The position numbers and the translations under genes are program-made. Below the pieces are notes generated by a model that made no database searches, was not told where the DNA came from, and was given only the letters and a program-made list of their open reading frames with translations. A DNA stretch of 64,000 bases from Epinephelus fuscoguttatus (taxonomy: Eukaryota > Chordata > Actinopteri > Perciformes > Serranidae): assembly GCF_011397635.1 (NCBI RefSeq), contig NC_064756.1:34710996-34774995 (forward strand), given 5' to 3'. Each line of letters opens with the position of its first letter. Position 1 is the stretch's first letter. Shown one piece after another: positions 2,796-63,919 of the stretch.

Positions 2796-5700
2796 ATGGC
2801 ATTTGTCGCTCCTCCTGGCTATCAGCCAGTCTACAGCCCTGTGAGTATCTGCACTGACTGCTGCTGAGAAATGCATTGCACTCAAGGTATAATGATTTTG
2901 AGTCAGCGGATTTACAAAATATATTACGCTGACAGTTCAGACAAAAGAGTCCAGTCCAGGCCTGTGTCTAGGATTTCCAAACTATATTTTGTTCTTCAGA
3001 GGACTTGATACAGAATTATGTTGCACTCCAAACAATATGATATATATATTGAAGATGCATGAAGCTGTCTCATTTACGATGTGCTTGTCTAGATTAATGA
3101 CACTATGAACATTGAAGATTTTGTAGGCTTATTTATTGATTATGATTGTGGTTAGTGATTGTTGATGCCACCGTGGATGTTCAAGGTTTAATAACCGTTG
3201 TGGGATTCAGTGAGTTTATTTGTTGAAAACTGCTATATGAGTAAAACATTTTGTTACTATGAGTTTCAGTATGATGTTGCCAATTCAATACATTTGGTCC
3301 AGCCCTAGTATCTACTGGTTTATTATAGTTAACTAAAACTATACTAGAAAACTAAAACTAGGTGTGATTTTTTTTAGTTAACTGAAATAAAAATTAAAAA
3401 TAGACTCTAATTAAAAAATACAGGTAACTCAAATTATATTGTGTACTCACGAAACTAAAATAATAAAAGAAAAATACAGAAAATGCCTTTAGTTTTAGTC
3501 TTTGTCTGTTTGTTAAAACTAGTAAAAAATAAATAAATAAATAAGCAAACTCAACATTTTTAAACAATAAAAACTTAAATGAGCAAACCCACCCTGGACC
3601 CTAACTGAAACTGAACTGAAAAGTAAAATTAAAAATGAAATCAAAATACAAATGATTGAAAAATACGAAACTACAATAACTCTGGCACATATTATAGGGA
3701 AGGTAAAACCAAAAAGCGTACAGTATAGTGACTGTACTTTCTTTCCACCACTACATTCAAGTAGTAAATGGTGAAATCAAACTAATACTTAATTCATTTT
3801 TATAGCGACTCTAAATAAGATCCTCCAGAGTCAAACTTTGTGACTTACAGATTTACTGTTTAAAATGGGACTGACTGTTGGACCCTGTGCGTGTTGTACA
3901 ATGTGGTTAAGTATTTTTGGGCACTGCACAGAATATTCCATATCTGGGGCCCATTTATGGAGGCCTGAGGGAGGGGATGTCCATCTACATCCAGGGCTCC
4001 GTTCCAGAGGACATTACCAGGTGAGTATTACTCTGTAGCATGGTACACTTTCAGTGTGAAATTCATCTTTTATATTTAAAATAATAGTTTCCCCCAAAAA
4101 AGTTTTATGTGCATGTTTTTTTTATTTTATTTTCATTTTTTAATCTCTAACCAAAACTTTTTGACATAATTTGGACACTGGGGGAACACCCTGTGTAATT
4201 TCACTCAGGGTGGAACTGGTTTCCTCTGCATTGTGAGATATCAAAGCAGGCTTGTGACACATGGCTCCACTTTTATCACCAAACCCTCCCCTTGTCAAAA
4301 TAGTAATATCTGAGGTACTCCTACAAGCCATTAACTGACAGAGTAAACACTGCACACACCTTACTCTATCTTAACATCGCTTTACAAGATCCTCATTATT
4401 TTTATGGTCTGCCCCACCTGCACTGTTTGCATTTCTATCTCTAAACAAACTTATCACTCAGGATTCAGTGACAAAATGTCTCAGTGTCACTGCTCCTTTT
4501 GACAGGTTCTTTATCAACCTGCTCTGCGGAGAGTCCGAGTCCAGCGACATTGCCCTCCACTTCAACCCTCGATTTGATGGCTGGGACAAGGTTGTCTTCA
4601 ACTCATGTCAGGATGGATCCTGGGGGTCTGAGGACAAGATTCGTGATATGCCTTTCAGTAAAGGCCAGGCCTTTGAAATGGTCATCATGATTTCTTCACA
4701 GGGTTACCAGGTAAGACCAACCAGAGGGCCACAAATGATTTCAAACCATTTTTTATGGATAACACTTTACTTGAATACATTCTTGGACCATATATATGGT
4801 GTAGCACTCTCTGCTTAACATTTGACATTACTCTGTTTCAGATCAAAGTCAATGGGAATGACTTCTACACCTTTGAACACCGTGTTCCTGTGGAGAGAGT
4901 TTGCGCAATGCAGATCGCAGGAGATGTTTCTGTTCAGACGATTAACATCATAGGGGTAAGACTTAAAATGGTTTTAAAATGTCTCCTGCTTCAAGCCTCA
5001 AAGCTGAAACCTCAATGTCCAATGAAAAACATGTCTTACAGCTCCTATTGCTAGGGTGGTGAAACGATAGTTGTTAAGAGGTTACTATAGGTCAGTGGTT
5101 CTCAAACTTTTTCTCAAACAGTAAACTGTTGGGGCGCTGGTGGCTTAGTGGTACAGCAGGCGCCCCATGTACAAGGCTGTTGCCGCAGCGGCCTGAGTTC
5201 GACTCCTGTTATTATTTATTTTCCCTACATTAATCATATTCAGTTATATTTCATGGCATTTTCCCCTGGTCATTCACGCCCTACCTGCAGTGGCTATGCT
5301 CCACATCTTGAGAACCACTGCTGCAAGTGAATATCTGGTCATTAAATGGCCCTGTATCAGTGGTGATAAGCAACATAGATTTGGGTTAGTAATGCCTACC
5401 ACACCTACTAGTTGGTTAAGAGGGTCATTATCATGCCATTCAAGTGAAACACCATGAAAGGACTGCTATGTGCAAGAAAGTTGATATATAGTGAGGGAAG
5501 GAGAGGTGATTGATGGGTCAAACACCAGACATACACCCATGACACTGGGCTTTGAGTCCCATGTGAAACAAGGTATTCATGCCTAACTATTATCTTTTTC
5601 TTAACCCAACCTGTTAAGTTTCACAGAGAGAGGACCTAATTACACCAAGCAGGCAGATTTAAGGAACAAATGGAGATTCATTAAAGTAAATCTAATAACA

Positions 5701-7742
5701 AAAGACAAAAACAGGCTGGCATCGAAACTGAGATTTGTCTGAGGTAAATTAAAGTACAAAGAAAAACACAAAAGCTCAACAGAGGACCAACCAGTAATGG
5801 ATTTAGGAACACAGGAAGAGAATCCGATAACGACAATAAACATTGTTTAAAGTGCTACCAAAAATAGCACCCGTACCAGTAGTGGTACTGGCAGTAGTGG
5901 TATTAGCAACAGTACGTCTGTGCTTGTGTGTGTGTGCCATTTTTTTCCTGGTAGGCATCACCTGATATGTTAAACAATGAGTGCTTTATACAACTCTGTC
6001 TGTACGTAATGTTTGTGTGTTCAGTTTTACACTTTTGTTTGGTCTTTTTAGGGTGGAATGGGAGGAGGAATGGGAGGAGGAATGGGAGGAGGCATGGGAG
6101 TAAGTATACCTAATTTGGGTGCAGAAAATAAATTCAACACAGCATTGTACAGGATCAACATGTTCACAACTTTTTAACAGGGAGGATATCCAGGAGGTTG
6201 CATGGGGGTATGCTATTTTTTTTTTTTTTTTTACCTTTGAAGGCAGTTTCCTTTAAATATTACTGAAAATGTAGTGAAATTAAATGAGAATATTTCTACT
6301 TGCCCTTGCTTCTTCTAACTGATACACAGGGAGGATATCCAGGTGGCATGGGAGGTGGCATGGGAGGAGGAATGGGAGTAAGCATACTTCCTTTTTTCAC
6401 TACAGGATGGTAGTAATTTCTTAAAGTGTGAAAATGAAATAACATACATCATGAAACATGGTTTAATGTGCCCACCACTGTCCAACAGGGAGGATATCCC
6501 GGAGGCAGCATGGGGGTAGACAAATACTTCTATTTCTGCTCTTCACCAGTGCTCACATTTCAAATTCATATATTTTGTTATATTATGTCAAAAATACAGC
6601 TAATTCACAATAAAAAAAACACAGAACAAAATGACGTGAAATTGTCCTTTTTAATTAAAATACGTGCTTCTTCACAGGGTGGATATCCAGGAGACATGGG
6701 AGGTGGTATCGGGGTATGAAACAATATCATGATTACTAATTTTGTTTTGCTTTTGTATTCTTTACGCATTGTGTTGATTTATAGTAAAATATGCCAAGCC
6801 AATTTGTCATGTGTAAGCTAAACAACAGTTTGTATCTAAACAATAGATTGTGTTCAGTGGACTGACTTTATTTTTTCTTCTGTCAGGGAGGATTTCCAGG
6901 ATCAAACCTGCCGGTGAGAATACTGCATAATTACACATTCATAAAGCCCTCTGTGTGATTTTTTTCTGACCACTGTTAATCCAATTTAAATCTTGTATCT
7001 GTTAATGTCATTATAGGGCATGGGTGGGCAGCCAGTCTACAACCCTGTAAGTAAAATTAGCAATTCAGCCTCATGCAGGCCGGTAGTGTTGGAGTAGAGT
7101 TCTGGACTTATTATCATGTAACCTGTCTTATTTTGTTTTTGCTGTGTGTTTTAAGCCTGTGCCTTACTCCAACATGATCCCAGGAGGGATGTACCCTAAG
7201 AGGACCATCATCATCAGAGGCATGGTACCCTATGGAGCAGACAGGTGTGTGTTTATTAGTGCACATACACTGAAATCACTGTAGTGTGAGTGCTAATAGA
7301 CACTTCTGGGTCTGTGTGTTGCAGAATGAGCATCAACTTCATGGTGAGCAGATCTCGGGATGTCGCCTTCCACATGAACCCCAGGGTGAGGGAGGGGATT
7401 GTGGTGAGGAACAGCATGATTGGAGGCGACTGGGGCCAGGAGGACAGAGAGCTCAGCATGAACCCCTTCATGGAGGGACAGTACTTCGATGTAGGTCTTT
7501 ATATTTGGTCCCATGTGGTCTACTTTTCTATTATTATTTTGACTCACTGTGGGTCAGCTGTGACTTAATTTTTCCTTTTCTTTTATGTTTCTCAGATGTC
7601 GATTCGCTGCGGGAACCAGAGGTTCAAGGTGTTTGTGAACGGGCAGCACTTGTTTGACTTCTTCCACCGCCTGCAGTCCTTCAATGAGATTGACTTGCTG
7701 GAGATAGAGGGCGACGTGCAGATCTCCTACATCCACTTCTGA
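2796..7742 (+). CDS. lgals4: Galectin-4-like tandem-repeat galectin (14 coding exons)
   Basis: Binds beta-galactoside glycans; galectins of this type leave the cell without a signal peptide and cross-link mucosal glycoproteins. Exons: 2796-2840, 3932-4020, 4506-4710, 4842-4955, 6052-6099, 6181-6207, 6330-6377, 6489-6515, 6678-6713, 6887-6913, 7017-7046, 7156-7244, 7325-7490, 7596-7742. All splice sites are GT-AG and join in frame to 365 aa. The N-terminus [15 protein letters not shown] closely resembles mammalian galectin-4 (MAYVPAPGYQP). CRD1 (about aa 16-151) keeps the sugar-binding set: HFNPRF, VVFN, then W and E in WGSED. A Gly/Met-rich linker covers aa 152-232. CRD2 (aa 233-365) keeps HMNPR, VVRN and WGQED, so both domains look competent. 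The start has a good context (GCCATGG) behind a TATA box. Galectin-9 also has two CRDs, but the N-terminus and CRD2 favour galectin-4. Confidence 0.92.
3325..3700. repeat. A/T-rich ACTAAAACT-type interspersed repeat in galectin intron 1
   Basis: Repeated short motifs (AACTAAAACTA, TTAGTTAACTGAAAT, GAAACTACAATAACTCTGG) resemble a common low-complexity fish repeat. A shorter stretch of similar composition occurs at 19490-19550 in an axl intron. No coding potential. Confidence 0.45.
5093..5320. mobile_element. Non-autonomous hAT-like element
   Basis: Bounded by 13-bp terminal inverted repeats: CAGTGGTTCTCAA at 5093-5105 and TTGAGAACCACTG at 5308-5320. CAG-start termini with this sequence are typical of hAT elements. 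No transposase. The flanking 8-mers CTATAGGT and CTGCAAGT match at only five of eight positions, so any target duplication has decayed. It lies in galectin intron 4, between the CRD1 exons and the linker exons. Confidence 0.7.
5131..5215 (+). mobile_element. tRNA-derived SINE head nested in the hAT-like element
   Basis: Contains an A-box-like TGGCTTAGTGGT and a B-box-like GAGTTCGACTCC at tRNA spacing, starting with GGGGCGCTGG. It resembles a tRNA gene but lacks a convincing cloverleaf, and similar sequence recurs at 36620-36765, so it is a SINE rather than a functional tRNA. Confidence 0.6.
6052..7046 (+). other. lgals4: Galectin linker: seven symmetric phase-0 mini-exons
   Basis: Seven exons of 48, 27, 48, 27, 36, 27 and 30 bp, each a whole number of codons and each starting and ending between codons. 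Products: a GGM/GGGM repeat of 16 aa, [15 protein letters not shown] plus GGGM repeats, [30 protein letters not shown] and [10 protein letters not shown]. Five of them begin GGYP or GGFP, which points to serial exon duplication. Any one can be skipped without a frameshift. Confidence 0.85.
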
Positions 7743-12471: not shown

Positions 12472-12931
12472 TCACTGCCAGGGCAGTTTCCTGGACCCTT
12501 CCCTGTCCTCCAGCAGCTCGACAGTTGGGGTGGGAGCCGGGGTGGGGTTGGGAGTGGAGTGGCAGGAGGGCTGTATAGGCAGCGTGGCTGTGGAGGACGA
12601 CACTGGCATGTCCAGGCTCTCCAAGGACTCAGAGAGGGCTCGGTTGGTCTCGTGTTGGGGACAGAGGACGTAGCGGTTGGGGTGGTGGACCTCCACTGTG
12701 GTCACAGAGTCTAGGCCCTTCAGGCAGAGAGGGGCTGGTCCCCCAATGGGGTCACGGCCACCAACGGCCCCTAGCTCCATGGAAGACTCGTCCATGTTGA
12801 CGTACAAGATCTCATCTGGGTCCTGGGTGTCTGGAAGATCCTCAAGGGCTTTTTCCAGCTCGCAGCGCAGGGACTCAAATGACGGGCGATCCTTCGGGCT
12901 CAGCAGCCAGCAGGAGAACATCAGGGCGTAG
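12472..12931 (-). CDS. axl: axl last exon: kinase C-lobe end and docking tail
   Basis: Encodes the last kinase helix ([13 protein letters not shown]) and the cytoplasmic tail. Tyr807 in ILYVNMDE corresponds to the multi-substrate docking tyrosine of mammalian AXL (human Tyr821), which binds PI3K p85, GRB2 and PLC-gamma. A second conserved tyrosine lies in RYVLCP. The last ~50 residues are Ser/Thr/Pro-rich and not obviously conserved; the stop follows KLPWQ. Confidence 0.93.
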
Positions 12932-15226
12932 CTGGAGAGGAAGAAGAAATGTTCATTGTATTTAATGTAGAATTCAAATGGAATATGATATGAAAAGTAT
13001 ATATAGTATGCGTAGTAGTATATAATAGTATATAAGTAAGTATTTAGTAGTAGGTCTCTTCTCCAAAACAAATGGAGATTGGTGATTTAAATCAGTAAAA
13101 ACACTGAATAAATTTCATGTTAATTTTTTTTTTTTCTAACACTGCTCATTGCGGAGAGGCTGCAAATTACAGTAGCTGACGTGAAAATGCAAATGACCCC
13201 ATCTAGAGTCAGTTTTTGGTTTGTCTGTTTCAGACAGAGGGTTAGCTTACCTAGAAAGCCTTTGTTCCCTCCCAAAATTTCCAGATAATAAATTAATATT
13301 TATTACTTTGCTGTTATAAACATGGTATATACATATCTTAAACCGGATGTTTCCATGAAATTCCTTTTACCTATTCTATCTCTACCACTATAGTCTTTTC
13401 ATGGTTCTACAACTAAATTGGTCAGAAGTGGCAGAAGTGTTATGTCTTGGAAAATTTTCCTATGATTAGCAGCAAATAATAAATTCCTTTTTCCTGGAAT
13501 TTCGTTGGATATTATCTGGAAATTGTGAAACTTAGAAAATGATGTTACTGTTAAACAAGTTAGACTGAAACTAATTTGAAACTTCATATCATTAAAATAT
13601 CAGTCTTACACTTATTACTAAGGAAGGGGCAAGTTTTTTAAATTGGGGAAATCTATCCTGGAACAAAATTGTTCTGTAAAATTGTGTTTATCTAGGAATC
13701 TTTAAGAAACATGGAAAAAATTCAAAGTATCATCTGAGCTCCTTGAAAAGCACATCTGTTTTTAGCCTCTAGCCTTGATTGCTTTATGGTAAAAAGGTAC
13801 ATCTAATCAGGAGGCGAAAGATTCCCAAAGTACTTCATCATCAGCTGAGTGTGTTTAGTGAGGCACTCACATGCTGTCCAGACAGTCCGGAGGCTGTTTG
13901 AGACGGTTCCCCTGTCTCAGGTAATCATAAATCTCACTGTTTTCCACCCCAGGGTATGGAGTCTGGCCCCGTGTGGCGATCTCCCACATGGTGACACCAA
14001 ATGACCACTGAGAGAGAAATAGAGAGAAGGAAAGGTGTAGGAAATGGTAAGGAGGGAGAGAGAGGGAAAGGGTTAAAGAGTTCTGAATTCCTTTAGGGTT
14101 TTACACACCTTGTCATGCACAACTCAAACATTAATCTGCACTGGTCAAACACTGGCTATGGGAATAACACAGCCATGTTTGTCTAGGCTTTACAGACATC
14201 CTTCTACGCACAGCTTACTAAAAAATGCACATCCTTTTTAACACTTTCACATGTGCATGGAAACCAGGGCCCCTCGTGCATACATACATACACACAGTCA
14301 TAATATCAGCTGTTACTGCTCATGTCTGTCCCAAATGTTAATATATATGTAAAGTATATTCTACTGAAAACTGAAAACTTTCAGTTCTCTCATCATGAGG
14401 ATATTACAGTAGTGCCATTTCTCAGTTTTGAAGCGTAAAAAAAAGGTCAAAAGTTAATCACTGAACTGATAATAGACTGGAATTCATCTGTTTTTGTAAC
14501 TTGTGAGGACATTGTCTCAACTTGCACTCATTTCCTGGAGGCCAGACTTTACCATAACAACTACATGCACAACTCTGGACTATCCCTTTACCATTATGGT
14601 ATCCTTAGAGCAATAGTCATCCAAAATCGACTTTTTCCTATACACTCACCTCATGTAGACATCAGTTTTGACAGTGGAACTAAAATAAACCATCTAACCT
14701 ACTGAAACTTCTTAAACTAGCCAAAGTAGAGTGCCACAGTAGAGTGCTTCCATTTCATCCTGTCACTCGCCTTGATGCTCCAAAATGCTGTCTTAATGTA
14801 ATGTAATTAGTCATATGATGAAATGATGATTGATTGGAAAACACTGAGCAAGTGAATTTCCTTTGGGATCAATAAAGTATTTATCTATCTATCTATCCAT
14901 GTAGCTGACATGGGGTAATGCATTAGGCTGCAGGGTGCTTTAAGAAGTTTCTGTAGAGTTTTTGATTCATTCTGCTGTGAAATTTATCACCACTTAAATG
15001 TACAGTGTGTAGGGTTTATAAGCATCTGTTGGCAGAAAATGGTATACAAAATCTGTAACTATTAGTCATTAGTTTATAATCACCTGGAAATAGAAACCAT
15101 TGTGTTTTATTACCTTAGAATGAGCTGTTTATATCTACAATAGCCCAGAACGGACAAACCAAAGACCCATTCTAGATAGGGCCATTCCCCAGATGGGAGA
15201 CGAGTCCCCACAAAGGAATTAATACA

Positions 15227-15280
<54 letters not shown>

Positions 15281-18200
15281 GACATAGTGGGTGAACTAAC
15301 CACATCACTCTTAGTGGTGTAGACACGATCAGCCAAGCTTTCAATAGCGATCCATTTGACGGGCATCTTTGAGATCCGCCCCTGCCTGTAGTAGTCTCCA
15401 TTGTAGATCTTCTTAGAGAGGCCAAAGTCAGCCACACATACATTCATGTTCTCATTCAGCCTGAGGAGGAGACACAAGAGTGTTATAATTCTGGAAAAAG
15501 GGCATTCAGGCAATGGTGGGAAGTACAAAAACAAGATAAAGTGCTGTAAAATTTTGAGATACTACTCCACTACATTTTTGTACTTGTTTATCCCACTACA
15601 TTTACTTGAAAGCTGTAGTTGCTAGTTATTTTCTACATACAAAATATATGATAGTATTATATAATAGGAAGCACAGTTTATTAAACGCAATACCCATGCT
15701 GGAATGGTATGCCTGTCCTGTATCATATTAGCCTTCTTGGACTTCCCCTCTCCCAGATGTTGTTTTGAGCACAGTCTCTTGGTCTACTTTTAGTTCTCTT
15801 TAAGTTCCTCTTGAAAGAACAAGTGATAACACATACAGGAACCAAGAAAGTAAAAAGTGGAAGCAGGAATTGTGCTTACATGCAGTTGCGAGCGGCGAGG
15901 TCTCTGTGGATGAAGTTCTTGCTGCTGAGGTACTCCATCCCTCGGGCAATATCGGTCATAAACTTTACCAACATTTGAGATGGGAGGTACTGCAGGACAG
16001 TGCAGATAGAAAAAGGTTTCAGTCACACACAGCTGACATTTCTTTTCTGCACAGTAGAGGGCACTAGAGTCTTTGAGGACCTATAATCTATCTGAACTTA
16101 ATGTTCCCTGCCCCACATACTAACAGCCTCCTCCTGTGGGAAGAATCGGGTTCAACACCATTATGTTTTTGAATGTTTGCCGAGCTCATGGATGTTTCAA
16201 CATTCTGTAAGAATCTTGTTTTGATTAGGCTTGTGTTTCTCAACTCGGCTCTTCGGGGACTTACTGCGTACAGCACTTCTCGATTCCAAAAAAACATCTC
16301 ATCCATTAATAAGTTAGCAGATAGCAACAACAGACGCATATCTGGTGTTTTCATGACTTCAGAGTATATGCACTGCCAAGAAGGTGTGGATAAGGACTTA
16401 CTGTAACAAACACTTTACGTCTACATTGACCTTTGGATTCCATTTTGCTGACAGACACTTATGTGAACTTCTAAACCCTGTACCCATTAAGCTGTTAAAT
16501 TGTGTGAGACTATGTGCGTGCGACTGCCTGTGTTTGCACGAGTGTATGTGTTGCTGACTCTGCTTTCATGGTTTTTTGTTTAAAATCAGACTAACCACAG
16601 GACAGTCTCCCAGCCTTGAGTATAGCAGATAGCTGTGCAGGTCGCCGTGTTTCATATAGGGCAGGATGACCACAGGGGAGGGGTAACCTTCACTCTCCAC
16701 AGTCTGCAGACACACACCTGGAAAAACACCTCAGCTTAGTATTATACACATAGACTACAAACATGTTCTCTACACATAGAAATTGCATAGAGATATTACT
16801 CATTATCTTAAAACAACTCTTGAATTTGCTAATTAAATAAGACAGTATTTTTTAAAGGGTCCGTTCGCACATATTTGTGGTTTCTTTTACCCAGGTTTTT
16901 AAATATTCATCTCAAACATTTAATCTTTCCAAAGACTAATGTCACTGATACTCTTAATAATTTTCTAAAAAAAAGTCTAATAAATCAGGACTATTACTTC
17001 GGTAGAAAGTAGTTCCATCAAAACCTATTTATAGTGAGCATTATGGGGAACCTGAGCAATCTTCAGACACTTGAACAAGAACTGAACAAGACTGTTTTTC
17101 TGATGATGTATTGCTGTTTAATCTTTTTTTAAATGCAATGTTTAATGTCAAAGGAATACTTTATCCACAAAATGACCATTTGTGAATTAATTATTCATGT
17201 TGTGTTACCTTGAATTTGTAAAGAAAACTTTGCTTTTCTCACATGACTCCAAGGGAAAACGGCAGACATGTTGATTTATTGATTGACTGGGTACAACAGT
17301 GAAAGTCCTGCAGTGTAATCCAAGTCTCATTTATCCAGCTGTATGCTCAGTACTTCACAAACACACCCATTTTATTTAAAAAAAAAAAAAACCTTAGTAT
17401 TAGAGTCTGGCTTTGAGGAGAGAATAGAAAAGTTTCACTTTTAGTTCAGTTTTAGGTACTAAAGTTTTTGCAAAAATGTATGTGTTTGGGAAGTACTGAG
17501 CATACAAGTGGATAACTGAGACTTGGATTATATGGCATGAGTTGGGAGAGTTTGTAAATGGATATTGTGATATAGTTTTGCTGTTGTTAAACGTGGTCCC
17601 CATCAATCAATAAATCAACATGTACGTCGTTTTCTGCAGAGGCATGCCAGAAAAACAAAGGTCTCTTTACAAAGTCAAAGTAACATGGTGTGACTAATTG
17701 ATATAATGGTCATTTTGTGGGTGCAGTATTCCTTTAAATGGATTCACCTGCACTGTGCTTATCTGAAAACCTGGGTAAAGAAACCCAAGAATACAGGGTA
17801 AGAGAGAAAACGTGTATTTTTGTAACATCAATTAGCTGATCTTTGATGTGGTGGGTGGGCAGTATGAACTCACCTAGAAGCCTCATGACATTGGGGTGGT
17901 CAAACTCTTTCATGCAGGCGGCCTCACGGAGAAAATCTTCCATCTCTGAGCGTGTACAGATGGCAACTGGGGAGGAGACAAGCGGAGGTGAGGCTGTGTG
18001 GTTTTGTTAAGCTCATGGCTGCCAGGTTGAGAGGTGGCCAGGGTTAGAAATAAACTTTTATTTCAGAAGTTGTTTTGGCTCCTGAATTTATTAAACTATG
18101 ATTTAAGACATGTTAGCAGTTTTTACCACTAAGTTTGTTTTAACTTCACCACCACAGTCTAAAACTGGCAGAAATCTCACATTAGAGGGTGGCACTGTTT

Positions 18201-24321: not shown

Positions 24322-27300
24322 CACTTTTTAACTGTGTTTTAAAAAGTGCTGTATAAAGATGCTTTACATTCTTACTAAGTAATAACTTTGTACTTACTAG
24401 CCACTTCTTTTCTTTTAACTATACTCAGAGTAAATACCAGGTAATTAGTGGACTGTAGAATAGAAGATTACCCAATGTTTGCTTATTACATACATATGCC
24501 ACAGTACTGCAAGGAAAAACATATTTGAACTGGTCAAATTGACTTAGTCCTGCTCTCCATATTTGTTGAGCTAAATCTAAATTTCTCCTCTTACTAAAAA
24601 TGTGCTCCTTTTTTATACCAACTTATCCTGAGTTCTTGCTGTCCCATCTCTCCCACTGAAATGTTCTCCCAGCTACCCCCCAACCTACTGCTATTCACTC
24701 ACAACCACCACCCACTTTTTTTTTAACTTGTCCTCTAATTCACACTCCTCCTCCCCCCCGACTTTGCTTGCCTCTTTTTATCTGCCATTCTTGTTGTTTG
24801 AATTGTCTGTCTGGCTCTATTAGACTTAGCAAACAGAGATGCTACACTGTTCCTGCCTGTTATAAATATTTATGATGCGTCTCCCATTCAACCCACCACC
24901 CCTCTTCCCCTTTCCCGTCTCTCTCTGAGATCCTCTCTTCTCTTTTTTCTCTTCCTTCCCTTTTCTCTGAGATACACAGGAAGGAACTTTGGGGCTCACG
25001 GAGAAACCCAGTGACAGAGAATAAGAAAGAGAAGTCCTGTGGTGGAAAAAACACACCATGGCCTCACTTTACTGTCACTATGTCATTACGTGCCACTATG
25101 AGAGGTCACAGCAGAGCGTGTTGGTTGGTTTGCATTTGCAAAGCCGGTCATTACTCACCTCTAAATTCCTCCATTTCTGTGGGAATAAAAAACACAAAAC
25201 AGCAAAGTCAGTATTTTGACTTTCAGGAGAAAAACAACATTGTTCAGTGAAACTGAAAATAATGTTTATCCTTGCAGAATTTATATGAAACAACATCTGA
25301 CATCTTCTAGTAAAAACTGTTCAATGTCATTATAAAATGCTGCAGACGTTCTGAGTTAAAGTTGATTACAAAATGACCCACATATAATATTAAATAATCC
25401 ATTTAAAGTAGATGTGTATGTTATTTTTGCATATTTTCATTAGCAGTTTTGACGCTTGTTGTCACTCACCAGGAGTAATAAGTGTCAGGGTCTGTGTGGG
25501 AGTCCAGGGTCCTTGCCCGGCTCCTGTATAAGCACACACTCGAAAGGACACATTGGACAGGGGGAGAGACAGATTGATCGACAGCTCGGTGTCCAAACCA
25601 GTGTCCACAACAAACTGTCAACAAAAGCAGAGAGGGAGTTGGTGAGTATGAAGCAGACTTAATATTCTCTTTTTATCTAAATTTGATGAACAGCATCAGA
25701 AACCATCACAGGTTTGTGCTGTGTGTGTCCCAGACTGACCTGCTGTGTGGCTGGCGTGCTGTACTCCACCATGTAGCCCTGCAGTTCTCCATTCAGCTTC
25801 CCTGGAGGCCCCTCCCACGTCATCAGCACCTCAGTCCCGTTCAACACCGCACTCACGTTAACAGGTGGGTTTTCTGGCACTGGAACACAAAAGCACAACT
25901 TTGAGCCATTTTCATTTCTCACACATCTGCAGGGATTTTTACCCGTAAACTTGATGCAAGATTGGGTAAGTGTTTGACACAGGGTGTGGCAGAGTGCTTG
26001 TCAAAAGATTTTGGGTATAAATGAGGAGTCGGCATTGCTGTGACTGTGGCCCGGTGGCCAGGGGCCAGTGAGTTTGTGGGTTAGCCAGGCGTGTGTTGTT
26101 TTGACAGCCTGGAGCCTCTAGGGTGTGGATAACTACAACAGCTGGAAGGAGAAGATGTCAGAGAATGTGGAGAATTCTGCTTTATTAGGACAAAAAAGGC
26201 GAGCTAAGGGCACCACAGACGAGGGGCGATTAGCTGAGTTCAGAAGCCACGGTTGGACAAACTCATGCTGAGGCCTGTGTCTCCCTCCTGCATGCTGTCC
26301 CTCCTCTTCTGTCCATCTTTATTTCTGCTTCATTCTCTCACCTGCCCTTTTCTCTTCTGGCTCTCTGGACCAGTGAGTGAAAAGAGGCTGCTGGCAGCAG
26401 AAAAACCCAGTGGACAGAAAAGCTAGCTGAATAAAATGCTAGAAATAGTGTGAGGAATTTGTGTGTGTGTGTGAGTGTGAGTGTGATTGATGCTCTGTGT
26501 AGCACAGAAATCCAAGAACCTTTTCGCGAGGAGACGACAGTGCTTATTTCCTTTGTTGCCGCTTGAGCTAAGGCTCTCTTTGTGTTTGCTTCTCACTCGC
26601 TCTGCTGGCTTACAAAGTCACACAAACTAGCTGGACAACCACACACACCCACACACACACACACACCAAGTCAGTGTGAGTTTGGGAAACATGGCCCAGC
26701 CTATGGATGATGTTATCAGGAAGCGTTTGGCGGATGATTGTTTCCACATGCGGTCCCCGTTCTGCCTGCCAGCGGCAACAAAAACAACCTCCAAGTCAAG
26801 CTCATTCCAGCAGTTCGTCTCCACCTATGATCCGTCATCTGTCTCTCTCTCTCTGCCTCCTTCTCCACCTCTCTGTTGCCTACCCACTCCCTTACTCCCT
26901 TTCTCCTCCCCTCTTCGTCTCTTTCTCGCTCCCTGTCTTCCATCCAACATGATTCCATCTCCCTCTTTCCAAGTTTTCTTCTCCCTCACTGCCCACTCTG
27001 TGGTAATGCCTCTTTTTGTCATGCTATGAGTTCAAGAGAACAGAGATGTTGACGTAAAACTTTGTGGAGGAGGGGGAAAAAACAGTTGAAAAAGCTCCAG
27101 TTAAGACATTTAGGGAGTTTCTAAAGGAAAACTAAAACACTAGATTTGTGCTGGTGCCGTTTTCTGAAGTGCAGAAACTACAGAGAAAAAATGCCTCATG
27201 TTGTTCTTTTGTGTTCCACATGAAAGCAGCCCAGGCTTGGCAAGAGGCTGAGAAACATACACTTTTGAGCCACAATTAGTTCACAACAGAGGAGGTTAAC

Positions 27301-36400: not shown

Positions 36401-39400
36401 ATACTATTTTTTATAATGGATTACTCTCATGATTTTAACAAACATTAAGACTGTAAAATGATACAAAATGGAAATTTAACGAAATTTATGGAACTTTTTG
36501 TCCATCTGCCACTGTGGCTCCCGAAAAAGTCCAGTCTGCTCCGACTGGTCAGCGTTTCCGGTCTTTACATTTACCATGAAAAATAACCAATAAAAGCTTC
36601 TGTTTCAATTTTTTGTTTTGTTTTGTTTTTCCAAAATGATTTGACAAAGGACAGTGTAGAAGCAGGGGAGAAGTGGTAGGACATGCAACAAAGGTCCCAC
36701 AGCCAGAATCGAACCCAGGACGTTGTAGCTACATGGCATACACAGTAACCACTCAGCTCCCAATAAAAGCCTCTAAACATAACACAACCCAACACAACCT
36801 ATTTCAGCAGGAATATGATCTGAAATCGAGGCAACCAAGATTACATGTTTCCCTGATGTTAGCATGCAGCTACATGTAGCATTGTAGGCTATGTAGTTTG
36901 GAGTAGACGAACATATAAATAAATCCTGAACATTGTGACATCATACTGTTGGCGCAGTAGAAATAACACTGGAAACAGAGTATTCAGAACAGTCTGAAGC
37001 CTGAGGATTAAATCTACATACATTTACCTCATGATCTGAAATTCTGGCCACATTTAAAATTAACCGCTGACATTATTACACTATAAGACACAAAATACAG
37101 AAAAGCATAATAGGCCCCCTTTAAACATTTTAGCATACTTTGACTTGAAACAATAAATTTAGGTTAAAAGGCTGACTTTCATCTTATGAGAATTTGAGGG
37201 TTTACTCATACATATACACTTATATATGTATATGTAGTTGGTGAACAGTACTGGACTTGTAGCTCTTTTCATACATAGTTTTAAGTCAGTACAGTGGGGC
37301 AGTGATTCCAAACACACAACCAAAATAACTTATTTAAGCCCAAAACAACTGAATGTTCCTGACTGGCTGAGTCAGTCTCCTGACCTAAACGCAGTCAATA
37401 CAGTATGTGTTTCAGTTCTCTAAGTGAGTCACCGGGAAGGATACCAAGTTTCTGCTGATGTCTGTTGGTCGTTCAGACAGTTATTGGATACACAGGACTT
37501 TAAATCAAATATTATACTCTACATAAGGACTTCATTTAAGTTGTGTTAGTTTGCTTTGGTTGCTTTTTGCCCTACAAGCTTTGGTTCCTAGAGTATCCAT
37601 CAGATGTGGATGGAAACTTGAAGATGTGCTGCCCTTGTTTTCTTAACGGTTGGAACGTACTTCATGCCATTTCTCTTTATGGGCCTATTGTAAGATTATT
37701 TGTGTTTGGACCTGTGGTCTGCCAGAGCAGCTGCCCATTCCAGAGATGTGAGTGTAGGTTACCGGCAAACGGGCCCTGGTCAGCACCAGCCAGCCTGCTA
37801 CGATGAGTCAAACCAGATCCTTAAACCGCCCGCTGCTGCCCGCTTCTCCCTCCCTCCGTCCGTCTGACTCAGCCCGCTCTTCCTGTCCTCCTACTACTGG
37901 ACTTAACACAGGCCAGCTATCTGGCAGGCAGCTGTGGTTTGCATTCAAGCAGCAACAGAACCATCTTCCTTTCTCTCCTTTCTTTTATCTCCCTCCGTCC
38001 TCTGCCCATCTATTTGTCTTCCCCCAATCGTCCCTCTTGCGCCTGCTGCTCTGCTTTTACCCATCAACTGCACCGCCACAAGGCACGACCTCAATGGATC
38101 CACTGGCACTGTGCCAGCCAGCCTGCTCTCCCTGGGGAGGGTGGTTATTTGGTGGTTTTGTTAAAGCCATGGAGGGGGGATTTGGAAGCCTTTGAAAGTA
38201 CAGATGATAGCTGCTGTGTAGCTTTCGAAGCAGTACATTATAATCAGTCTAAATAGATTAAATTAAAACCAGTAGTTTTGAAAAAGGTCTTGTTTTTGGT
38301 AATTTAAAAACTTTGCTACTTGGGGCCGCAGGCTGCCGACAGTGACTTCTTACTTGACTTTTGTAGTGCTGAAATGAGCAGTCGATGAATCAAAAATTAA
38401 GATTACTGATTGATTGTTTAACGCTTTATCATTTCAAAAACATTTTGTGGTTTCAGTTCTTCAATAGTGATGATTTGCTGTTTGTATTTTTTTGACTAGA
38501 CAATCAACAATTGTAGTCCCAGACTGTTTTATCGATTGCTGAACTTTGAGCTGTGTCAGTGCCCTTGAGGATGATTGAGGCTGCATGTTTTAATGAGTCT
38601 GACTAAGCTGTGTACATGTGGCCTTGTCTAACAGAGGGTGAAAGATGATACCTGTGAGGTTAAGCGTGGAGGGTGACAGGGCCACCGGGTCTGTCAGGGA
38701 GTTGAGAGGAGCACCGTCCTGTAGCCAGATGACCCTGACTGGCTCTGGAGGTCCGTGGGCCACACAGCTCAGACTCAGAGATACATTGGCCACTACAGAC
38801 ATGTGCTGGGGCTCCACAGAGAAATGAGGAAGGCCTGAGAAAAGAATGAGCTGAATCAGGGCCTTGACTCTTTTAACAATCCAAATAAAACTGCAGCACA
38901 CAGAGAAAAAAAGCTTATTGTTGTGAGATGAACTCACCCTCCAGTTGAATGCTCCCCTCATCAGACATAGTCTGGTGGCTTTCTGACAGAACGGCACATC
39001 GGTAGGAGCCCATGTCAGGAAGCTGGACCTTCTCAATACTGTTGTGTGCATAAAGGATATGATTTGACAGGCTTCATTAAACTGGGTGATAGAGGCAGAA
39101 ATATGCACAGATCCTAATTAGTTTTCTTGCAGTTTTTTCCATCCAATCACACTGGGATTCAATACATTAAGATACAGAGGCTGGTGGGATTTTGTTTGGG
39201 TTATATCATTTCTTTAAGACTTAATTTATTTCCACTGTGGCTGGAAGTAGCGTAGTGAGGTAATCCAGCAACAATACTGGTTAAGCTAGATGGGAGGATA
39301 AGGTGGAGGAACAGGAAACAAACACAACAAACACACAGCACACACACATGACTGACATTTTTTGGCCAGGTGTGGCTCCCTCACAGTAGATGAACCTTTA

Positions 39401-53800: not shown

Positions 53801-54667
53801 CAGTGCCTTCAAGCTTGTTCAGGCCGTCAAGTCGAGCTACACAGATTCATACACATGGCTCATACCTCATCCTCCATTTGTCATCTCCCATTTGGCAATC
53901 TTTGTAAGCTGCAGAGCTTGCCCTCTGCCCTGTCAATGCCGCTGCTGCCCTACATCAGTATTACTGCTTGCTCTTTAAGCCCCAACTCCACAACAGCACC
54001 ACACATGGGGGGGTATTTAGGTCAGGGTCTAGATGTCAAACTTTAACTATGTTCTGCTGTTGCAATAGGCCTGATCATTTCAGACATGATTTGTTTGACT
54101 GACATAGTAATAATTATCAAATACCTGCAAACATTCCTATCAGCCTAAGCTATATTTTGTGTTTTGTGCTAATTAGGCACTGCTGCCAACATAGTAGTGG
54201 ACTATTAGTCCTACTTTTTTTAACTTCTTCTGTCCAGATTTTCACCATCTATTTTCATCTACAGTATCACCATAAATCATCCAGTATAACTGCACTATTT
54301 GACTTTAACAAAAGCAAAACCAAGGAGACTAACTCTACCCCATAAACATGCCCCTCTTGTTTCTTTTATTTGCTGCAGGGGGGTTTATGTTCAAACAGTG
54401 GAAGGAGAAGTATATCGTGCTGACCCTGGAGGGAAGTTTGTTGGTGTGCCGAGATGCAGAGTCCCCTCCAGACCAGGTGGTTGCACTACAAACCAACTGT
54501 GAGATGATTGTAGAGGGACGAGAAATCCTGGACCTGCCTAAGTTGCCTCCAGGGGGCAGGAGGGACTGCTGCTTCGCCCTCATCCTGCCACAAAACAAAT
54601 TCCTGCTGCTCCTCACTGACAATCCTGATGACTGCAAGTGGGTCTCTCTCTCTCTCTCCCTCTCTCA

Positions 54668-54736
<69 letters not shown>

Positions 54737-56426
54737 ACATGTCCTTTGGCCCATTCATTATCAGATGTTAACTGCAGATAGTGACAGACACACATGCTGG
54801 AATTTAGGTCTCCTTTGTCCCACTTACTATCAGTCATGTTTACTGCTGAAGGTTAACAGATCATACTGAACTTTTTCCGTTGTTGGCATAATAATCTACA
54901 TGCCTGGATCTCGTTCTATGAAATGACTTGTCATTTTACCTTTTACAGTCTGTGGCTGAATTTGATCAGGAAAGTGAGAGAGGTGAGTCAGCAGTTTTGG
55001 CTCGAGTCTGGTCCTGCTGTTGCTTCATTCAGCCTTGTCCTCATGTCTTCATCCCAAAACATCACCTCCCAATCCTAAAATTGTGTTCATACATAAGTTT
55101 CTAATAATATCTGTTGGCTGTTCTAATAACATGGTGTTGCTGTTACACAGTGTATCTCTGTGACATAATAACCCTGCATTTGTCTCATTTCCTAGGGTGT
55201 TATGTCACCCCTGACCATTCAGAGACAGTGCAGCATCACTCCCTGTATCACCGACAGAGACCCCCTGCCTGACTCCTCCAGTGATAAAGACCCTGGGTCC
55301 CCGAGGTTTTGTGAGGGCACGCCTCCTTTGTCTCGAGTCACTGAACGGGGAGGTTCATTCAGAGACAGAGGCCAAAACCAAGGTCAGCTGTCAGGTCAAC
55401 CAGATGTAGTAAATCACAATTTCATGGGGCTCTATGCAAAATTCAGAGCGATGATTTGACTCTACACTGTTCTCAACATGGAGGTGGCTGAGCCAGCAGC
55501 TAACAGTGCCAAACAATAGCAACAGTGCTGACAGAGCCAACAGTGTTAATAAGGGGGGAAACAGAGGATGGGCGCGGTGACACCAACCAGATTTGGCTGT
55601 AACTGTCGTATGAGCGCAGTGCAGTGTGATGGTGATAAGCTGGCCAGTGGGATACACATATGCACTGACACGCACGCATGGCCAGACTGCCTTACCACAA
55701 CAAACCACAGAGAAGCTCAGATTGCAACACACAGAGGTAGCTCGACTTCATTCTCTGCACATGATACTGTTACTCCACCATATTTTTTACATAGCAAATA
55801 GTGGTTTGATGCTATAATATTGCTCTGAATGTTGAAGAGAGCCCATTAAAGCTGCATTATGGATCATATACTAAAGAAAACATACTTTTTATATTATATT
55901 GCATTTCAGCCAATGTATCCTCCTAAATTCTACACACTGGTCCTTTAAAGGTTAAAGGCAGGGGAATGACAGAAATTAATTTAGTTTAAATAAAGAGCAA
56001 AAAGGTGAAAATCTTCAAAACTTATCTACATGCATATTGTTGATATTATTTTTTCGCATTACCTCTGCAGCCAGTGTACCACGACGGCCTTTTCGCAGTG
56101 TTTCTGTGGCCCCCCCTCATCGTGTGTCTGATTGTCTTCGCCATGGCAACAGCAGCGATGCACGGGCGGTGCGGGCAGTGTGCCTGCTGATGGGAGGGGC
56201 AGCGGCCTCTTCTGCCCTGGGCTACCTCAACTCCTGCTCCCCTTCTTCTCCCCTTGCCAGCAGAGCCCCAGAGATCGCTCATGGCGCAGGGGGCTTCTCT
56301 GAGCTCCCCGCAGGAGGCTCTTTCCATGCCTGCAGCCAGGACGTAGACTCCCCTCACTTCAACAGCTTCGACTTTGAAGGAGACTCCGACTTCGATGCAT
56401 TTGACTGTGGAGGATTTGCGTTTTAG
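50850..56426 (+). CDS. PH-domain protein of unknown identity (5 coding exons, 296 aa)
   Basis: Exons: 50850-50904, 54379-54637, 54949-54982, 55196-55382, 56071-56426; all GT-AG, joining in frame to 891 bp. The PH domain spans about aa 9-116: it opens GVHRGFLRKYG, continues across the first intron as GFMFKQWKEKYIVL, and ends with the diagnostic tryptophan helix LWLNLIRKVRE. PH domains usually bind phosphoinositides or proteins at membranes. After it come a Ser/Pro-rich linker, a small apolar patch (VCLLMGGAAASSALGYL) and an acidic aromatic C-terminus (FEGDSDFDAFDCGGFAF). No signal peptide or enzyme domain. The chosen start gives a complete PH beta-1 strand; a pyrimidine tract plus TTTAG just before it means a non-coding exon upstream is possible. 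Divergent from axl. I do not recognise the gene; the apolar patch loosely recalls evectins (PLEKHB), but similarity is weak. Confidence 0.8.
52963..53341. mobile_element. Non-LTR retrotransposon 3-prime tail with (CATT)n end
   Basis: Contains CAATTTAGAGTCTCCAATTA, CATGTCTTTGGACTGTGGGA and GGGAGAACATGCAAACTCCG, hallmark phrases of a very abundant teleost LINE tail (RTE/Expander-like in my recollection). The (CATT)n run sits at its left end, so the element lies in minus orientation. No coding remnant. Family name is from memory. Confidence 0.65.
53672..53765. mobile_element. Repeat fragment (CTCAACAACTATTGAATGG)
   Basis: ATCTCAACAACTATTGAATG and CATGACATTGGTTGTGGTTC resemble a common fish interspersed repeat; boundaries unclear. 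Confidence 0.4.
54669..54734. repeat. (CA)n microsatellite downstream of the PH-gene exon 2 donor
   Basis: About 33 CA units, preceded by a (TC)n tract (54644-54668). It lies 32 nt downstream of the exon 2 donor GTGGGT at 54638. Reading through the donor would code for a His-Thr repeat, which confirms the exon ends before it. Confidence 0.95.
55830..55950. mobile_element. Fragment of the CAGTGTGTAG-type MITE-like repeat
   Basis: Ends AAATTCTACACACTGGTCCTTT, the inverse of the terminus at 31861. In intron 4 of the PH-domain gene. Confidence 0.5.
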
Positions 56427-57847: not shown

Positions 57848-58736
57848 TCCTGCTGTCACCATGACCGTGCGTCTTTCTCTCTACATCCATCTGCTGTTTG
57901 CTGGCTGGCATGGAGCCGCAGTGCAGACAGCAGGCCAAGGGTTGGAGAGGAGGGATGATGGAGCAGATTTGCACAAGAGGGGGATATGCAGAGCCTGAAC
58001 GGCCGTGTGTGCTTATGTGGGATTTTGTCGAACAGTAAAAAAATAATCTCATGGGTTTATAGCTCATGTGTTGGATTTGGAGTTATGTACAAGCTTGTGT
58101 GCGCTCTCAGTTTTTACACTCAAATGGGCTTCATGTGCGGTGATGAACATCCAGAAAAGCCTTCTTTTGTCACGTACAAGAAGGACTCGACTGACACAGT
58201 GATCATGATGCCATAAATAAAGAGAAATTGTTATTTTACACACAGATAACTATAAATCATCGACATCCTGGAGAATACTTCCTTTCAAAATATAAATATA
58301 ACTGCTTAGAAGTAGTTTTTGATAATCTTTAGTTTATCTTGCCACACATATCACTATGTTTATCATATCATGAATGTTGTGCAATACATCAAAGCCTTGT
58401 TGCTTAATATTGGTATGACTGCCAACCAGGCCAAACAGCCTCTGAAAGGAACAAGTTGTGTGGGCTGGTAATTATAGTTAAATATACAGTAGATACAAAT
58501 GTGTTTGACAACATGCACTACTAAGGCACAGGTTAAAGTAAATGGTGTTGGTGTTGCAGCTCTGTCTTTAAAGTTTAAGAGTTAAAATTGAGTTTTAAGA
58601 GCTTTTTTCCCATGTACCTACCAACTTTCTGTTAAATATGAACAACAAACACTTTAAACACAAAACTAGAGACTGGCAGAAAGTAATTCAGTATGAGAGA
58701 CCAACAAGGAGACGACGAGAATACAAAGTGCAGAGA

Positions 58737-59646
58737 ATGTTATGGGATTTTCAATTAACTGTGATGTTGGCAGTGCTGGTCTTAGCTTTGCTGTGGCTAT
58801 TTAGCATGAAAACCCACACACATATGAAATCTGTCAAAGTTCAGCAATTAATCAGTTTAATTCTTTTAGTTTGTATAATCGTGAATGTTGCAGTCTGATA
58901 AATCACGTCTTGGTCCAGCTCAGTGAAATTTAGAGGCCTGTGATGATACTGTAGCTGGGCTGGCAGTGGATCATTATTCAGTGAAGGAGCCCCTGGTGGA
59001 GCAGGCAGATAACTTCAGTGACAGAGTGCAAATACAGACTTAACTCAAATTTACCAAGAACAAACAAAGGGTGCGTTCAAATCTCTTATCAATGAAAACA
59101 GTGATTCCTTTCCAGTGTCTTGCATGTAGCTTTTTGAGTGTCAACCCAATTGGCAGAATAAAATGTTGGCCTTGTACTGTATGTCTCTGCAAACCATGGA
59201 TACATTATATTTGTACATTATCACGTGACGGATATGTTGAAACTTTACCTTTTTTTAAAATTTAAACAAGCTGTGGTTATCGTGCAGCTGTGTTTAGGCA
59301 GAAAAAGCACAATACCAGCTTTTGGTAGCTGCAAACAGAGCAATGTTTAGGTTTTTATTCATGTTCATTTGGGCTGGTGTTATAGTTTATGCTTTTGATC
59401 GCATTTGATTACTCTCTTCATATCTCATTTATTATAAAGCTGTGTTTTAAGATTTACAGAGTCTGTCTTCTATTTGCTGCTGCTCTGTTGGCCTGGCCAC
59501 TGTGTAAGTTAATAAAACATAATTTTTCTCCATATTGTTAGGTTTGGGGATCAGTAATGGACATTAAACACTGACAACGCTCACAGATTATGGGATGGAT
59601 GCAACAGGACAGGAGAGTGAATGTAGAAGATTTAACACAGTCAAAG
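58737..59646 (+). pseudogene. Decayed CYP2 duplicate: remnants of exons 1, 2 and 3
   Basis: Exon 1 remnant 58737-58830 reads MLWDFQLTVMLAVLVLALLW, then LFSMKT, matching the membrane anchor of the intact gene (ILAGLILALLWLFSVK) but losing the Pro-rich hinge. Exon 2 remnant 58919-59037 begins CTCAGTGAAATTTAGAGGCC, parallel to CTCAGTGAAACCTACGGCCC at 61830, with stop codons and frameshifts. Exon 3 remnant 59542-59646 begins GTTTGGGGATCAGTAATGGA, identical to the intact exon 3 start, but is 105 rather than 150 bp. Introns are retained, so this is a tandem duplicate, not a retrocopy. No exon 4 was found. Confidence 0.85.
59190..59320 (+). mobile_element. Fragment of the minisatellite-bearing element in pseudogene intron 2
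   Basis: TTATCACGTGACGGATATGTTGAAACTTTAC and AAGCTGTGGTTATCGTGCAG parallel TTTATGTGGCACATATCGAAACTTTAC and CCCTGTGGTTAACATGTGGC at 60385-60440. Same orientation, without the tandem-repeat part. Confidence 0.55.
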
Positions 59647-60890: not shown

Positions 60891-61434
60891 GTTTTGTTGT
60901 TTGTTGGTATGGAACAGTGGTCTGCAGCTTGGCAGCCATCTCGCCTTGGTGTCACACCATCCACCATCCCTTCCACCTCCTGATGACAAAATCAGCTCAT
61001 ATACTATGTCCCTTTAGAAATGTTGATATGATACATATGACATGTGCAAATATTAATGTATTCATAATTTGCAGAAGTGTACAATATCATTTTCTTCAGG
61101 CGACTGGGCTGCAGGTTTCTCATTTTTTAAACAGTTTCAGCATGATAACAATACTCCAAAGTTAATGATTTTCTGTTTTTTTTAAATGAACTTTGAAACA
61201 TTTAGTAAAAGAAGTGCTAAAAGTGCATGTTCATTCCTGTCAGTTGGAGAGAAGAAGTGAATTGCATGACAAATGAGATATTAGCTTTGACAGCCTCGCT
61301 TCACACTGGCTTTTAGTCAATAAAAACACTAATCAGGTGAAGGTGAACTGAGATAAACTGTTCAGTCACATGGTTCACCTGTGGCCTAATACAGTGCTCC
61401 TGCCAACAACCTGTTACACATAAACAGATTCAGA

Positions 61435-61440
61435 TATAAA
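61435..61440 (+). promoter_or_regulatory. TATA box of the CYP2 gene
   Basis: TATAAA lies 79 bases before the first ATG of the P450, which would place transcription start near 61465 and give a 5-prime UTR of about 50 bases. Inferred use. Confidence 0.5.
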
Positions 61441-61513
61441 CACCACTCACAGGCTAAAAGCAGGTAGAGATCTGTTGACCAGCGCAGAGTCAAGAAGACA
61501 AGGTGTAAAGAGC

Positions 61514-63919
<2,406 letters not shown>

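Follow-up and report, generated by a model that had tools for sequence, protein, structure and literature searches.

A predicted galectin-4 gene in which seven phase-0 mini-exons encode a glycine-rich linker, with signs of exon copying

The gene at positions 2796-7742 of the window (the whole 64-kb stretch of DNA that was analysed) is, by sequence comparison, a galectin-4 gene, most likely from a ray-finned fish, as both of its galectin domains (CRDs) match galectin-4 best among the PDB chains listed. The two CRDs are joined by an unusual linker that is divided over seven very small exons. The reading that we consider likely is that this linker is a flexible spacer that has grown by exon copying and by slippage, and that its exons are for the most part constitutively included. 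The gene model was assembled manually and verified with a script: 14 coding exons on the plus strand give a protein of 365 residues, the joined coding sequence is open over 366 codons including the stop, and 13 of 13 introns are GT-AG. The exons, together with the two introns that bear on duplication, are as follows.

2796..2840, plus strand: exon 1, 45 bp, CRD1 leader, phase 0 out
3932..4020, plus strand: exon 2, 89 bp, CRD1
4506..4710, plus strand: exon 3, 205 bp, CRD1, the longer of the two middle exons
4842..4955, plus strand: exon 4, 114 bp, final CRD1 exon, phase 0 out
6052..6099, plus strand: E5, 48 bp linker exon with a 12-bp tandem repeat inside
6100..6180, plus strand: intron 5, 81 bp, resembling intron 7 at both ends in the anchored and global tests but not in the interior test
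6181..6207, plus strand: E6, 27 bp linker exon, GGYPGGCMG
6330..6377, plus strand: E7, 48 bp linker exon with a 12-bp tandem repeat inside, probable relative of E5 by copying
6378..6488, plus strand: intron 7, 111 bp, aligning with intron 5 and 30 bases longer
6489..6515, plus strand: E8, 27 bp linker exon, GGYPGGSMG, probable relative of E6 by copying
6678..6713, plus strand: E9, 36 bp linker exon
6887..6913, plus strand: E10, 27 bp linker exon, GGFPGSNLP
7017..7046, plus strand: E11, 30 bp, predicted CRD2 leader and counterpart of exon 1
7156..7244, plus strand: exon 12, 89 bp, CRD2, length and phases as in exon 2
7325..7490, plus strand: exon 13, 166 bp, CRD2, the shorter of the two middle exons
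7596..7742, plus strand: exon 14, 147 bp with the stop, final CRD2 exon

Each of the seven exons E5-E11 is preceded by AG, is followed by GT and is in phase 0 at both ends; the donor of exon 4 reads GGG/GTAAGA, and the introns that lie inside the linker (introns 5 to 10) measure 81, 122, 111, 162, 173 and 103 bp. The original prediction of a galectin linker built from seven symmetric phase-0 mini-exons of 27-48 bp, located exactly at 6052-7046, is borne out by the gene model and by the Pfam and PDB matches. Its claim that the exons are neutral with respect to frame also holds, as any subset of E5-E10 keeps the reading frame. Both strands were scanned for open stretches of 24-60 bp that contain at least 40% glycine and are bounded by AG and GT. 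The output was 14 rows, 10 on the plus and 4 on the minus strand: five of them are E5-E9, nine are spread over six other places, and the glycine cut leaves out E10 and E11. Because the scan gives other rows and misses E10 and E11, the seven-exon reading rests on the open frame, on the splice sites and the repeat, and on E11 being homologous to exon 1, rather than on the scan.

The protein contains two stretches that match Pfam Gal-bind_lectin (PF00337, E 2.6e-82 over the 365-residue protein), and thus two such domains in one chain with a linker between them, which is the architecture of a tandem-repeat galectin. Its assignment to galectin-4 used PDB chains as the only comparison set, limited to the best 60 of 179, and is based on scores rather than on a tree. 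Among these best 60, single-domain chains of galectin-4, which we take to be human, ranked first for both domains: CRD1 scored 200.8 bits against galectin-4 (5duu), as compared to 121.1 for galectin-7, 110.3 for galectin-9 (2yy1) and 91.0 for galectin-8 (4bme), and CRD2 scored 185.1 bits against galectin-4 (1x50), as compared to 109.5 for galectin-9 (3nv1) and 105.6 for galectin-8 (4gxl). The highest total score within the best 60 of 179 belongs to a two-domain galectin-9 chain (211.7 bits, about 105 per domain), and three two-CRD galectin-8 chains total about 187 bits each; these values of 187 to 212 bits are reached only when both domains are summed. In the same comparison (best 60 of 179), exon 1 aligns with MAYVPAPGYQPTYNP of the galectin-4 N-CRD in 5duu. 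According to the excerpt of PMC10343441, tandem-repeat galectins of gnathostomes have a long middle exon in CRD1 and a short one in CRD2, and the middle exons found here, 205 bp in CRD1 and 166 bp in CRD2, follow that rule. The gene therefore resembles galectin-4 (LGALS4) in having two CRDs, in the sequences of the N-CRD and C-CRD, in the leader residues present on both CRDs, and in the long CRD1 and short CRD2 middle exons. It differs in its seven-exon GGYPGG/GGGM linker of 81 residues, as the aligned galectin-4 chains share only the SNLP...NP end. The sugar-binding motif of galectins is, as we take it, H-NPR, VxN and WGxExR. CRD2 carries all of its elements (HMNPR, VVRN and WGQEDR), and CRD1 carries HFNPR, VVFN and, within 4506-4710, WGSEDK, in which lysine replaces the final arginine, presumably a sugar-contact residue. 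One scan each of viral contigs and of genome contigs confirmed no relatives of the gene, as expected of sets that contain no fish.

The last exon of the linker appears to have an origin distinct from that of its neighbors. Judged by alignment, E11 is the leader of CRD2 and homologous to exon 1, rather than a GGYPGG copy. Of its last 24 bases, 19 are identical to those that end exon 1, as compared to 15 of 24 at the next-best site on either strand of the window, and the protein alignment of the two halves begins with GYQPVYSP over GGQPVYNP. In the 1x50 alignment, galectin-4 NSLPTMEGPPTFNPPVPY is placed over the end of E10 and the E11 region. E10 itself is composite, as it starts like the repeat exons and ends in SNLP, which aligns with NSLP of galectin-4. 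Since E11 and the final SNLP of E10 align with known galectin-4, both would be ancient portions of the gene; the GGYPGG/GGGM stretch in front of SNLP is probably the lineage's own addition. The seven duplicated exons originally proposed are accordingly too many, and the expansion comes to five or six.

The linker is dominated by glycine, its 81 residues including 46 Gly, 11 Met, 8 Pro, 5 Tyr, 1 Phe and a single charged residue (7.4% aromatic, 1.2% acidic). GGYPG occurs in four of the seven exons (E6-E9) and GGFPG in E10, and neither is present in E5 or E11; the proposal that all seven encode GGYPGG/GGGM units thus fails for E11, which holds no GGYPGG copy. At one mismatch or fewer, CAGGGAGGATATCC is found at five sites in the window, all located at the acceptors of E6-E10, and at no site in 100 dinucleotide shuffles. 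When up to three mismatches are allowed, the same five sites are recovered and the shuffles yield a mean of 3.17, with at least five in 19 of 100, so that the number is not unusual; the signal resides in the near-exact copies and their positions, not in the number at three mismatches. The exon start GGAGGATATCC is exact in three exons (E6, E7 and E8) and one base off in two (E9 and E10), whereas E5 starts with GGTGGAATGGG and E11 with GGCATGGGTGG. A nearly unchanged start motif is therefore a property of five exons, and not of E5 and E11. Similarity of the acceptors, which had also been claimed, amounts to a CAG shared by E6-E10 and mostly nothing more, and E5 and E11 have TAG instead. Of the 30 bases upstream, 19 are shared by E6 and E8, and 17 by E5 and exon 12, which are not proposed as copies.

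The 12-bp repeats in E5 and E7 are an addition to the original prediction, from which they were absent. Tandem Repeats Finder reports 3.8 copies with 97% match in E5 and 3.2 copies with 92% match in E7. These repeats could provide a simpler way of changing linker length, in four-residue steps and with no need for splicing. Slippage within them might even be the main cause of length variation between individuals, with the number of exons fixed, and the copy number and uniformity of the two arrays are in keeping with this. However, the copies are few (3-4) and short, and they were seen in one haplotype only, so we regard this account as possible but somewhat unlikely.

Splicing could offer another route to length change, because any subset of E5-E10 stays in frame: with E11 kept, these subsets give 24 possible linker lengths ranging from 10 to 81 residues. 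This would suit a regulated linker in which E5-E10 are skipped in varied combinations, by tissue or state, to produce different reach, as in galectin-8. Galectin-9 is a further case of a regulated linker. The donor sites point in the same direction, as a simple count of matches to the nine positions of the U1 donor consensus gives 6, 5, 5, 4, 5, 6 and 7 for E5-E11 and 6, 8, 8, 6, 7 and 6 for exons 1-4, 12 and 13 (4-7 vs 6-8 of 9, Mann-Whitney p 0.038), with E8 being the weakest (GGG/GTAGAC, 4 of 9). The donor shortfall is, however, due in part to the glycine codons at exon ends, the acceptors are ordinary (10-15 pyrimidines of 17), and symmetric exons by themselves do not imply skipping. A lower donor match permits skipping but does not demonstrate it, and regulation of this kind is in our judgment unlikely. 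Intron 8 (6516-6677) has 162 bp, a multiple of three, and is open in frame throughout, so that retention would add 54 residues with no stop; these residues are not linker-like, and the open frame was put down to chance. Introns 5 and 7 are also multiples of three but contain stops.

The evidence that exons were copied comes from the exons themselves and from their flanking introns. E6 and E8 are identical at 24 of 27 positions and E6 and E7 at 26 of 27 aligned positions, although such resemblance alone is expected anyway from a glycine repeat. More informative are the synonymous codons, which were permuted within the linker: in the first five codons of E6-E10, 34 identical codons are shared as compared to 20.2 +- 4.4 expected (p 0.004). 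The same permutation revealed no synonymous excess at the last three codons of E5-E9 (p 0.80), and none in the pairs E5/E7 (p 0.56) and E6/E8 (p 0.14). GGAGGA is a kind of splicing enhancer, and this role could keep codons alike without recent copying, which counts against copying as the explanation of the excess.

In the introns, two repeat pairs extend from exon into intron, one at E6/E8 (6152-6227 with 6460-6535, 76 nt, 72%) and one at E5/E7 (6050-6116 with 6328-6394, 67 nt, 78%). Both fit a single event, in which the block E5-intron 5-E6 would have been copied to E7-intron 7-E8. Local alignment of the intron interiors placed 2 of 45 pairs below p 0.05 (introns 4-10 and 6-12), which is chance level, and gave p 0.27 for introns 5-7. 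The interior test trimmed the first 6 and last 20 bases of each intron, and the 20 on the acceptor side hold part of the E6/E8 similarity; because these bases are dropped, anchored tests were added. On the acceptor side, E6/E8 is the lowest of 28 pairs (p 0.0013; 14 of 20 bases, p 0.0026), and on the donor side E5/E7 ties with E7/E10 as the lowest of 28 (p 0.0093), with E7/E10 matching at 17 and E5/E7 at 15 positions when 30 bases are compared. Beyond the splice consensus, the pair of introns 5 and 7 has the highest score of 78 pairs (12, reached by 0 of 3000 shuffles, p 0.0003), and in global alignment it comes first of 45 (z 3.09, uncorrected p 0.004, identity at 48 of 68 aligned bases); these single-pair p values are not clean, as the similarity had been spotted by eye before testing. 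Their family-wise p over the 78 pairs is 0.17 (150 sets), and the runner-up, introns 4/13, scores 11.

Low p values also arise among pairs that are not proposed as copies, namely E5/E12 (p 0.011, 14 of 20 bases), E5/E10 and E6/E9 (both p 0.046) on the acceptor side, E6/E7 (p 0.025) on the donor side, and introns 7-10 (p 0.018), 8-13 (0.026) and 7-11 (0.037) in global alignment; these mark the noise level. Introns 7/10 come near introns 5/7 on the donor side, and a copy relation between E7 and E10 is possible. On these alignments, support for one two-exon duplication is fair, not strong, and there is none for other steps, which may lie too far back to be detected. Serial exon duplication, as it was first put forward, is thus upheld by the exon similarity, by the codon excess at the starts of E6-E10 and by one two-exon step, but not by the exon ends or by the codons of E5/E7 and E6/E8. 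Alignment of the exons with their flanking introns, suggested as the means of reconstructing it, places introns 5/7 first in two tests, but this is offset by the interior and family-wise values, and no other pair is clear.

Introns may instead have been gained, such that each repeat unit of an ancestral single GGYPGG/GGGM exon received an intron in an identical proto-splice context. The boundaries of E5 to E10 do separate glycine codons at a constant position within the repeat, and introns other than 5/7 lack clear mutual similarity. Gain of this sort nevertheless seems quite doubtful, as introns 5/7 are alike at both ends and sit beside exon pairs of equal length (48/27 and 48/27), and as the phase-0 introns that follow exon 1 and E11 show that a small phase-0 leader exon predates the CRD duplication. 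A further reading, in our view very unlikely, treats the linker as an expandable array of cassettes, with fast mini-exon gain and loss among fish and tissue-dependent inclusion producing a ladder of up to 24 lengths that tunes the cross-linking of mucus and microbial glycans.

In the preferred reading of a spacer grown by copying and slippage, the vertebrate ancestor would have possessed a shorter linker, of which the CRD2 leader exon E11 and the final SNLP of E10 were already part. The lineage would then have copied a small GGYPGGxMG exon, one time as the two-exon block E5+E6 to form E7+E8, and 12-bp slippage inside E5 and E7 would have added GGGM units. As all of these introns are phase 0 and the linker exons are multiples of three, the number of copies could rise or fall with the frame kept intact. 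The resulting linker would serve as a spacer, flexible and disordered and bearing a few Tyr/Phe stickers, that would determine how far the two sugar sites can reach and might permit weak self-association. Its exons would mostly all be included, so that its length would change in evolution and not by regulated splicing.

Other galectins provide partial parallels. As stated in the excerpt of PMC6182346, the galectin-8 linker has 33 or 75 residues depending on inclusion of a 126-bp exon, and the induction of IL1B and IL6 is unchanged by its length; this indifference, in one assay, counts against a functional role of length. The excerpt of PMC10895193 likewise describes a spliced galectin-8 linker, with specific partners for the short form. 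The gene described here is similar to the long and short galectin-8 isoforms in that in-frame exon content may alter linker length, but galectin-8 has one cassette exon, whereas here there is a row of repeated mini-exons for which a change in splicing is only possible. According to PMC12979664, the length of the disordered region varies most in fish among vertebrate galectins, and the disordered region of a zebrafish galectin is reported to drive agglutination. Its cuts for a phase-separating IDR galectin are an IDR of more than 75 residues, more than 8% aromatics and less than 3% acidic residues; judged by composition only, the linker falls outside this class, as its 81 residues and 1.2% acidic content pass but its 7.4% aromatic content lies under 8%. 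It shares with galectin-3 and the IDR-bearing fish galectins of that paper Gly/Pro-rich repeats with aromatics that are variable in length in fish. It differs from human galectin-3 and the zebrafish galectin, in which, by the same paper, the disordered tail sits on one CRD that is compared 1:1 with that of galectin-3, whereas in the present gene the repeat separates two CRDs.

No description of a mini-exon linker in galectin-4 was found among the titles and abstract openings of the literature matches listed. Annotated fish genomes very probably show the multi-exon glycine linker already, and it is a variant of galectin-4, a known gene, not a new kind of system. If the arrangement is true across fish, it would supply a natural series of linker lengths with which to learn how CRD spacing sets cross-linking and ligand choice, as well as a clean case of a disordered region that grows by exon copying, beyond slippage alone. 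The feature gains weight if exon copy number or inclusion varies.

Upstream of the galectin gene, a 38-bp tandem array occupies 333-825 (12.8 copies, 80% match), and three more copies of a like unit, AAAATGTCATAAAAAACGTCATAGTATAGTATGTCGTC, are present at 1186-1299. Table 1 in the excerpt of PMC10343441 gives bloc1s3, hnrnpl, ech1, actn4 and ryr1 as the synteny of galectin-4. Of six pieces of neighboring ORFs compared with Pfam, four matched a family (tyrosine kinase, fn3, Ig and PH). The following ORFs were observed in the window.

15172-15561, minus strand: tyrosine kinase piece (PF07714, 1.7e-14)
25677-26000, minus strand: fn3 piece (9.3e-05, under the curated cut-off)
38590-39117, minus strand: Ig piece (PF13927, 1.7e-07)
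54333-54869, plus strand: PH domain ORF (PF00169, 2.3e-06)
58599-58898 and 61424-61837, plus strand: two ORFs with similar hydrophobic starts

The ORF at 12472-13086 matched no Pfam family, and the ORF at 61424-61837, which had no Pfam match, presumably represents the N-terminus of a CYP2 cytochrome P450. The kinase, fn3 and Ig ORFs are presumably parts of one TAM receptor gene such as axl, as suggested by the string KWIAIES.
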